This document shows, piece after piece, positions 28,754-30,426 of a DNA stretch of 59,749 bases; position 1 is the first letter of the stretch; each line of letters begins with the position of its first letter. The translations under genes were made by a program, and so were the position numbers. The notes under the pieces are model-generated. The model was given only the letters and a program-made list of their open reading frames with translations, was not told where the DNA came from and did no database searches. Source of the DNA: Carboxylicivirga marina (GTDB lineage: Bacteria > Bacteroidota > Bacteroidia > Bacteroidales > Marinilabiliaceae); the NCBI RefSeq assembly GCF_016612505.1, contig NZ_JAENRR010000032.1, positions 1 through 59,749 on the forward strand, read 5' to 3'.

Positions 28754-29171
28754 ACGCCTTTGTTTATTGATGTATAAGTAATATACGACCACTAGCATGA
28801 TAAGGGAATAGCATTTGCGTTAAAAAAAGATAAATAGGTCTTTAATTAATAGTAATGAGCACTTCAAGCTATTGCTCAAATCTTAATATGTGATGGAATG
28901 CACGTAGCTGTTTTTATGATTGAGATTATTGTTAACTAAGGGCCGTTTATTCGTCTCGAAAAACCGGTCATTCATCCTTTAATTCGGTTGTTTCGTCAAG
29001 GAAATGGAAAATAGTGTTATAAAAAGGTGTTACGTTTTCGCCTTTCTGCAATTAACTGATATAACCTAATTGTTTTCGAATAATGACCAAACTTAAAATC
29101 TACACAGCTCTTCTGCATGTATTTGCAAACGACACTTCATGTATATCATCGATTTTTTACTTAGTGGAGCC

Positions 29172-29392
29172 GATACAACTTGTATTTGCTTGTTTAAGCA
29201 GTAAAAAGTGTCGATACCCTTTGGTATTGGCCCCACCCAGTATTAAAAAGTGTCGATACCAAAAGGTATTTGAAAGAATAAGCACTAAAACACCACAATA
29301 CCATTTGGTATTCACTCCGCTAAGTAGTTAAACTCACCGATACCATTTGGTATTGAGAAAAAAATAGAAAAGCATCGATACCAAATGGTATC
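29172..29392 (+). repeat. Array of six palindromic repeats with about 42-bp period
   Basis: Five copies of GATACC-N4-GGTATT at 29213-29228, 29255-29270, 29297-29312, 29339-29354 and 29377-29392, and a degenerate one at 29172-29187 (GATACAACTTGTATTT). Centres are 41, 42, 42, 42 and 38 bases apart, about four helical turns. A tract of the form AGYANTAAAA-n-GTGTC precedes most copies, so the repeat unit is about 32 bases with about 10 variable bases between units. Outer pairs are G-T, G-T, A-T, G-T and G-C, all pairable in plus-strand RNA. The array ends 48 bases before the DUF6261 start codon. Nothing is recognisable in 28754-29171. Confidence 0.85.
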
Positions 29393-29440
29393 GGGATAAA
29401 GCAACTAATCCCCAATTATCAAGTAGAAATTTAAATTTTT

Positions 29441-30166
29441 ATGAAAATGAAAAAAATACCAAGAATCCTAACCAACACCCGTGTTAGTGAAGTCAATGGT
29501 TTGTTTCGGCAAATGATTGATGAATTTACAAAGGGTGATTACAGCGGTGATGCTTATTTGAGCCATACATTTGGGCAAGTCACCGATATGAACGAACAAT
29601 TAGGCATTGCCATTATGCGCGATGCGGTAGAGTCGGATTTAGCCGATTTAGATGATGTGACTGATCAAATATTTACTTTGTTGCATGGCCTTGTTAAAGG
29701 TTATACCTGCCATCCGGATGAGGCCATTGCCAATGCGGCTATTTGGCTTTTTAAGATGATTGAAAAGTATGGTCTTGAAGTAAAGAATAAGAGTTACCGT
29801 GAGGAGTATCCTTTGTTGGCCTCTATGATAGCTGAGCGTAAAACGGAAGACTATCAGACCTGTGTAGCTCAGCTATCGGGTTGCGATATCCGTTTTAACC
29901 AGCTCGAAACAGCTGTGGACAACTTTAATGCCAAGCAAAACGATTATTACTCGGTGAAAGATGACCGTAAGGAGTTGGAAACAGCTTCGGTAATTAAAAA
30001 ACGATTGATTGATTTGCTCAACGACGATGTAGCACCTTACATGGTGGTGATGAGCAAAGTGAATGCGGAAACATATGCTGAATTAGCACAGTTTATAGTG
30101 AACCGTATTGACGAAAGCAATGCGCTGGTGCGTCAGCGTAAATCAAAAGTTGAAACAATAGATTAA
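29441..30166 (+). CDS. DUF6261-like helical protein of unknown function
   Basis: 241 residues, no signal peptide, no membrane segment, almost entirely helical by eye. It looks like the DUF6261 family, which I know from Bacteroidota; this is pattern memory and not a search result. Visible segments: FRQMIDEFTKGDYSGDAYLSH, LADLDDVTDQIFTLLHGLVK, CHPDEAIANAAIWLFKMIEK, FNQLETAVDNFNAKQNDYYS. No catalytic motif is evident. A second ATG is at 29447. The palindrome array lies directly upstream and a clean terminator downstream, so gene and array form one self-contained unit. Confidence 0.7.
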   Translation: MKMKKIPRILTNTRVSEVNGLFRQMIDEFTKGDYSGDAYLSHTFGQVTDMNEQLGIAIMRDAVESDLADLDDVTDQIFTLLHGLVKGYTCHPDEAIANAAIWLFKMIEKYGLEVKNKSYREEYPLLASMIAERKTEDYQTCVAQLSGCDIRFNQLETAVDNFNAKQNDYYSVKDDRKELETASVIKKRLIDLLNDDVAPYMVVMSKVNAETYAELAQFIVNRIDESNALVRQRKSKVETID

Positions 30167-30188
30167 ATAAAAATGGGAGATTAGTTGT

Positions 30189-30214
30189 AGCCCCGCAGAA
30201 ATGCGGGGCTTTTT
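30189..30214 (+). terminator. Terminator after the DUF6261 gene
   Basis: AGCCCCGCA/TGCGGGGCT, perfect 9-base stem, loop GAAA, then T4. Confidence 0.9.
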
Positions 30215-30426
30215 AGTAAGTGTTTTAATAAGAATGCATAAGCAGAGGAGATGCTTGTATGAATAGCTGTTTTTACTAATTTAGAAGAGTATTAACATAT
30301 AATAGCCACTTAATAGAGCAAAAAAGCTTGTTATGTGGTAAAACGAACGATGCACAAAGCAGATATATCGGCAATATGCTCGTGGATATAGGAGAGTTGT
30401 GTGGCATAAAACAAACCATATAATCA

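Follow-up and report, generated by a model that had tools for sequence, protein, structure and literature searches.

The window, the whole 59,749-nucleotide stretch of Carboxylicivirga marina DNA analysed here, contains six palindromes at positions 29172-29392, upstream of a gene for a DUF6261 protein (PF19775). The original prediction of a phased palindrome array in front of such a gene is thus confirmed by direct reading of the sequence. The first palindrome, GATACAACTTGTATT (29172-29186), is degenerate. The other five, found both by reading and by a pattern count, are GATACC-CTTT-GGTATT (29213-29228), GATACC-AAAA-GGTATT (29255-29270), AATACC-ATTT-GGTATT (29297-29312), GATACC-ATTT-GGTATT (29339-29354) and GATACC-AAAT-GGTATC (29377-29392). 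Centre-to-centre distances are 41.5, 42, 42, 42 and 38 bp, the last being that between palindromes 5 and 6. The last four agree with the predicted spacings, but the first had been put at 41 bp. The outermost pairs of palindromes 2 to 6 are G-T, G-T, A-T, G-T and G-C, exactly as claimed. A second conserved tract had been said to precede most copies, and both reading and a repeat search place it at half spacing on the plus strand ahead of four palindromes: AGCAGTAAAAAGTGTC (29197-29212), AGTATTAAAAAGTGTC (29239-29254), AGCACTAAAACACCAC (29281-29296) and AGTAGTTAAACTCACC (29323-29338). Ahead of the last palindrome the tract is reduced.

Allowing at most one mismatch, the motif ATACCN4GGTAT has eight matches in the whole window, five of them perfect, and all five perfect matches fall within the array. 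Shuffled versions of the window contained 1.41 matches on average, and none of 100 shuffles reached eight. The repeat search recovered four copies of the array unit at spacings of 42, 42 and 42 bp. Tandem Repeats Finder at its default score did not report the array, probably because the copies are too diverged.

The downstream gene lies on the plus strand at 29441-30166, with a second ATG at 29447, and encodes 241 amino acids. PF19775 is the sole Pfam match of its product (E 1.1e-13; 51.9 bits against a curated cut-off of 27). Six neighbouring proteins in the window were also scanned. Five belong to the CMD, DJ-1/PfpI, Omp85-like, RibD_C and glutamine synthetase families and one matched no family; there was no ParA or ParB among the six. 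The genome of C. marina (5.65 Mb, 206 contigs) has 11 PF19775 matches, counting the window gene. The family occurred in 17 of the 40 genomes in our search of relatives (own genome counted) and in five of 295 genomes sampled from the whole class (C. marina itself and a relative counted). One copy, L088 (G011:C44:192634-193053), has three in-frame stops, so broken relatives exist.

The AlphaFold2 monomer model of the window protein is all helical (pLDDT 87.7, pTM 0.68) apart from a non-helical basic N-terminal segment, residues 1-12. The protein as a whole is acidic (net -11). It resembles sensor domains and other bundles, but only with the Z scores that helical bundles ordinarily give, and no DNA-binding domain, whether ribbon-helix-helix or helix-turn-helix, was evident among the 50 structural matches listed (Foldseek top chains). 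The window protein had no match in phage and plasmid collections, and a DUF6261 alignment (A2) had none in viral contigs. PADLOC models of anti-phage defence gave no match at E <=0.1 for three of four DUF6261 proteins, including that of the window; the fourth, L043, had one weak match (E 0.057).

We then looked for a period of about 42 bp upstream of other DUF6261 genes, as the original prediction had proposed. Of 101 non-redundant proteins, we used the 94 whose start was reliable and whose upstream sequence reached 250 bp or more. An array was called where 10-base windows agreed at 8 of 10 positions at a lag of 41 or 42 bp and again at 82-84 bp. By this rule, 57 of the 94 upstream regions contain an array, compared with 0-2 of 94 at each of 15 control periods, none of the 94 DUF6261 ORFs themselves and 18 of 1963 random windows of the C. 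marina genome (0.9%). The remaining 37 upstream regions fail the rule. They include all ten members of one subfamily (at least 32% identical to L082; the next protein is 23% identical), so DUF6261 loci without an array, named beforehand as grounds for calling the repeat a chance minisatellite, do occur in part. The rule is conservative, since some of the 37 have an array visible by eye, such as the window ortholog L105 with its visible palindromes. Direct repeats at 41/42 bp are a commoner upstream signal than palindromes, which make a stricter detector: 29 of 94 regions exceeded all 40 of their shuffles by palindromes alone. Arrays extend to other Bacteroidia families: six loci were read in G060 and G146, and five of them (L134 and L141; L135, L137 and L140; not L138) possess one, mostly with different palindromes. 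There was no array upstream of L136 in G071, and L130, from Draconibacterium, has an upstream repeat at 40 bp.

In an alignment-free count over the 94 loci, palindrome centres were more often 20-21, 41-42 or 61-62 bp apart than at adjacent distances or in shuffled sequence. Under a strict palindrome rule, 27 loci with 126 palindromes gave 99 spacings with a mean of 41.50 bp (sd 0.55), or four turns of 10.4 bp each. In L031, nine palindromes stand in a row exactly 42 bp apart in nearly identical units. Two different palindromes alternate at 20.5 bp in L029, L043 and L056, and L074 has one interposed site at 21 bp. A spacing of 41.5 bp is kept across loci with different palindromes, which strongly supports the prediction of a DNA array whose sites lie on one face of the helix. 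A helically phased DNA lattice at DUF6261 loci is well supported. Around the 126 strict-array sites, A- and T-tracts are scarcer within 13 bp of a palindrome centre than at ~14-20 and 22-28 bp, where most of them lie, a placement that may reflect intrinsic bending between sites.

The palindrome itself differs between paralogs, and even between orthologs. That of L008 is TTCCGC-N4-GCGGAA and that of L028 is TTTCCAAACGTTTGGAAA; L008, L028 and L029 are related proteins with different arrays, although L028 and L029 have one palindrome type in common. Among eight orthologs of the window gene, four (L001, L104, L105 and L106) have RATAC- or mixed RATAY-type palindromes and four (L099, L108, L110 and L112) have the TNACTA type. 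Palindrome similarity rises weakly with protein identity (Spearman 0.27, 351 pairs), from a mean of 0.29 below 30% identity to 0.55 at 50% or more. Beneath this variation lies a roughly constant frame, TT-NNN-Y-A-NN-T-R-NNN-AA. T stands second from the palindrome centre in 11 of 15 protein clusters that are less than 50% identical to one another, a purine stands third in 13, and A stands seventh in 10 and eighth in 12; these positions were picked after viewing the 27-locus table, and p values are uncorrected. The shared frame points to a single family of reader proteins, with a core that varies.

One candidate for the reading segment was the N-terminus. Residues 1-10 differ at a relative rate of 1.69 in 14 pairs with differing palindromes and 0.84 in 11 pairs with agreeing ones (p 0.003), for pairs that were sorted by hand and are non-independent, with L001/L104 omitted as intermediate, and as one of 46 overlapping windows. 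Residues 186-195 score alike in the same test, and in a partial correlation over all pairs (26 loci; L083 dropped as off-register) residues 213-220 came first and 5-12 eighth. We therefore dropped the N-terminus as specificity reader.

Arrays also occur away from DUF6261 genes. Scanning 1.82 Mb, about a third of the C. marina genome (G000), revealed 19 peaks at the 41/42-bp period, compared with 0-2 at each of 16 other periods. Seven peaks lie at DUF6261 genes, one is coding, one is of low complexity and ten are unlinked (one of them weak). Seven of the ten DUF6261 genes in the scanned part carry an array peak, and the eleventh, L008, which lies outside it, also has an array. The unlinked arrays form two classes: three are palindromic, with 5-8 palindromes and no 21-bp signal, and seven have a 21-bp signal. 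These seven, together with L276 in G012, have 21-bp signals of 13-70 and 0-2 palindromes. By the same rule, the seven DUF6261-linked arrays have 21-bp signals of 0-4 and 1-6 palindromes, four of them holding only one or two clear ones; a plainly palindromic make-up is thus not general among the linked arrays.

All three palindromic unlinked arrays of the scanned part match the palindrome of one of two resident DUF6261 loci. L118 is flanked by lolA and an acyl-CoA carboxylase gene, and L173 by genes for a beta-lactamase-fold protein and a LiaF-like protein. L186 separates two convergent genes, whose products are a chemotaxis-type protein and a zinc-finger protein of the DksA/TraR type. Taking at least three sites in 300 bp as a cluster, palindromes of the window type cluster in the scanned part only in the window array, in L118 (six sites) and in L186 (three sites). 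The unit of the window is thus present at two sites without DUF6261, so the second sign proposed for a minisatellite, a unit unrelated to the gene family, is also found in part. L186 contains, besides these three sites, GATACAA-type sites resembling palindrome 1 of the window; GATACAANTTGTATC clusters there. L118 is laid out approximately as a mirror image of the six window sites, with distances of 38, 41, 42, 42 and 42 bp. L005-type palindromes cluster only at their own locus (L176) and in L173, where five sites lie 42 bp apart. L003-, L004- and L008-type palindromes cluster at their own loci only (scanned part), and the patterns tried for the L016 and L006/L007 palindromes gave uninformative searches.

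The array beside lolA is found in two more species, G007 and G011, both of which have a RATAC-type DUF6261. In G007 the cis and trans arrays have the same mixed palindromes. In G011 the trans array has ATACC and the cis array ATACA, the outer bases being common and the inner arm base different. Of the 13 relatives, the other 11 showed no such array in up to 560 bp past lolA. Among them, the contigs of G003 and G013 run out before that distance, and G001, G002, G005 and G006 have another gene next. G004 possesses a RATAC-type DUF6261 gene, yet other sequence and no array follow its lolA. In the eight of 13 genomes that have the orthologous gene, 760 bp were read beyond it and the L173 array was not found. 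A profile search for hidden DUF6261 genes beside the unlinked arrays gave none. Two trans arrays, in two species, are adjoined by a similar TTAAACCCGCAATATGCATTAG-like sequence (L173:8675-8790; in L248, downstream of lolA), perhaps a small mobile or repetitive element.

The 21-bp arrays have about 6-10 conserved bases by eye, are mostly intergenic and have no DUF6261 nearby. They include L196:2340, L206:7492, L215:6258, L243:12817, L185:13298 and L171:6084, and L276:582 in G012. Two genomes have no credible DUF6261, namely G006 (no match) and G012 (best E 0.72). The 160 kb scanned in G006 gave one peak, by eye repetitive coding sequence, and the 200 kb scanned in G012 gave one array of the 21-bp type. 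Since the class is present in G012, we do not ascribe it to DUF6261. About 1 kb beyond the L243 array, at L243:14086-14703, lies a gene for a DUF2806 protein with a weak, below-cut-off Abi_alpha match.

The original prediction favoured a string of hairpins in the leader transcript of the DUF6261 gene. Such a leader RNA could be bound by the DUF6261 protein or act as a riboregulator. Selection as an RNA hairpin predicts that plus-strand G.U mismatches exceed A.C. In the window array alone there are four plus-strand G.U pairs against none on the minus strand, which explains the earlier inference, but over the 27 strict loci the asymmetry is gone (47 plus-strand vs 51 minus-strand). By locus, seven lean one way, 14 the other and six are even, and a looser strand test over 55 loci counted 108 G.T vs 114 A.C. 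In 240 terminator-like hairpins of the same genome the count was 112:50 (p 1e-6), showing that the test is able to detect RNA. The window array folds better as plus-strand (z -9.2) than as minus-strand RNA (z -5.4). However, strong folding on both strands is expected of palindromes, and the predicted fold mainly joins neighbouring palindromes to each other. Rfam gave eight matches at E <=1 in 28800-30400, none above its gathering score. A consensus promoter scan with TAnnTTTG was uninformative. B-DNA helical spacing is unexpected for RNA, and the trans arrays adjoin other genes, in one case between convergent genes. On the strand counts, Rfam and folding we rejected a leader RNA as the main reading, and consider it highly improbable.

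Functionless tandem duplication at 41/42 bp would account for copies that are alike in their linkers too, for the near-identical units of L031 and for the fast sequence turnover between orthologs. We nevertheless regard a minisatellite as very unlikely: the period is unique among the 16 tested upstream and the 17 of the genome scan, the frame is kept while sequences differ, L029, L043 and L056 alternate two palindromes at half period, and arrays are concentrated at DUF6261 genes far above the genomic background. Partial as the association is, unlinked copies share the palindrome of a resident gene, which speaks against the chance origin that such exceptions had been taken to indicate. It is possible, though we give it less credence than binding by DUF6261 itself, that unlinked DNA-binding proteins other than DUF6261 use the arrays as operators, and that DUF6261 is cargo under their control, such as a structural or sensor protein, without binding DNA itself. 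The predicted acidic, helical protein would fit this role, as would its likeness to sensor domains, albeit at Z levels usual for helical bundles; the 21-bp arrays further show that arrays exist apart from DUF6261. Conversely, several unlinked regulators would have to track the paralogs and their differing palindromes, yet the frame is common, and palindromes of resident DUF6261 loci recur in all three unlinked palindromic arrays from the scanned part of G000. A further proposal, which is compatible with binding by DUF6261 but which we consider unlikely, is that DUF6261 complexes bridge distant cis and trans arrays, or load a larger machine, at centromere-like or chromosome-organising sites. 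The trans arrays do lie in intergenic regions of unrelated genes, and the layout parallels that of F-plasmid parS/sopC, which PMC6238139 describes as twelve 43-bp tandem repeats with ten 16-bp inverted repeats. DUF6261 arrays, with 41.5-bp units and palindromes of ~14-18 bp, resemble this ParB/SopB-bound centromere in layout only. Unlike it, they are chromosomal and linked to DUF6261, and a single genome has many different palindromes. The window protein matched no plasmid, and the lack of ParA/ParB among its six scanned neighbours and the small number of trans arrays in the scanned third of the genome argue against a centromere-like role.

We lean somewhat towards an explanation in which every paralog of DUF6261 has a helically phased lattice of its own, in the promoter region of its gene and at a few distant loci, on which the paralog or a partner linked to it assembles. 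The array would be double-stranded DNA with several binding sites four helical turns apart, on which bound dimers would align along one face and assemble cooperatively. Each paralog, or its specific partner, would recognise its own palindrome within the family-wide frame. Its action at its own upstream array would most likely be autoregulation, and it would also act at the few distant arrays bearing the same palindrome; it may thereby regulate or tether loci. DUF6261 as the lattice reader is the most economical reading and, in our judgement, a fairly probable one; the acidic all-helical model and the lack of an evident DNA-binding domain in its 50 listed structural matches are points against it. 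The proposal as a whole also has against it the 37 upstream regions that fail the rule, the linked arrays with few clear palindromes, the cis-trans difference in G011 and the trans arrays not found after lolA in G004 and at the orthologs of the L173 locus. More speculatively, and with rather low probability, the paralogs could be mutually orthogonal 'address' proteins, each nucleating on the lattice beside its gene and on matching ones elsewhere, and so linking or jointly silencing these loci. A constant structural frame and a freely evolving half-site core of 3-4 bp would then let new addresses arise quickly.

Several known systems share part of this design. MetJ is a cooperative autoregulator whose metboxes are neighbouring palindromic sites, helically phased, upstream of its own gene. 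DUF6261 arrays have the same arrangement, but differ in the 41.5-bp (and 20.5-bp) lattice, the paralog-specific palindromes and the lack of a recognised DNA-binding fold in the model. Plasmid iterons repeat at roughly two helical turns, and the unlinked 21-bp arrays resemble them, whereas DUF6261 arrays have a four-turn period, are mostly palindromic and are chromosomal. REP/BIME elements with their RAYT genes likewise combine intergenic palindromes with a linked protein family, but DUF6261 arrays have fixed helical spacing and are few per palindrome type (scanned part), and the linked protein matches no Pfam family but DUF6261. Our literature search found no description of DUF6261 function or of phased or tandem palindromes in Bacteroidetes; most subscription papers lay outside it, which leaves this absence unproven. 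As far as we have searched, DUF6261-linked phased palindrome arrays are a real, undescribed pattern.

A family without known function thereby gains a testable one, sequence-specific multi-site DNA assembly, and the trans arrays provide concrete candidate target loci. The 11 paralogs of this single genome, whose palindromes vary within one frame, are a natural experiment in how specificity for DNA shifts. A DUF6261 that binds these sites would contain a DNA-binding module missed by the family models searched. Should the paralogs indeed read addresses, their orthogonal multi-site assemblies on DNA would be a naturally occurring toolkit, and the mode of binding would fall outside known folds.
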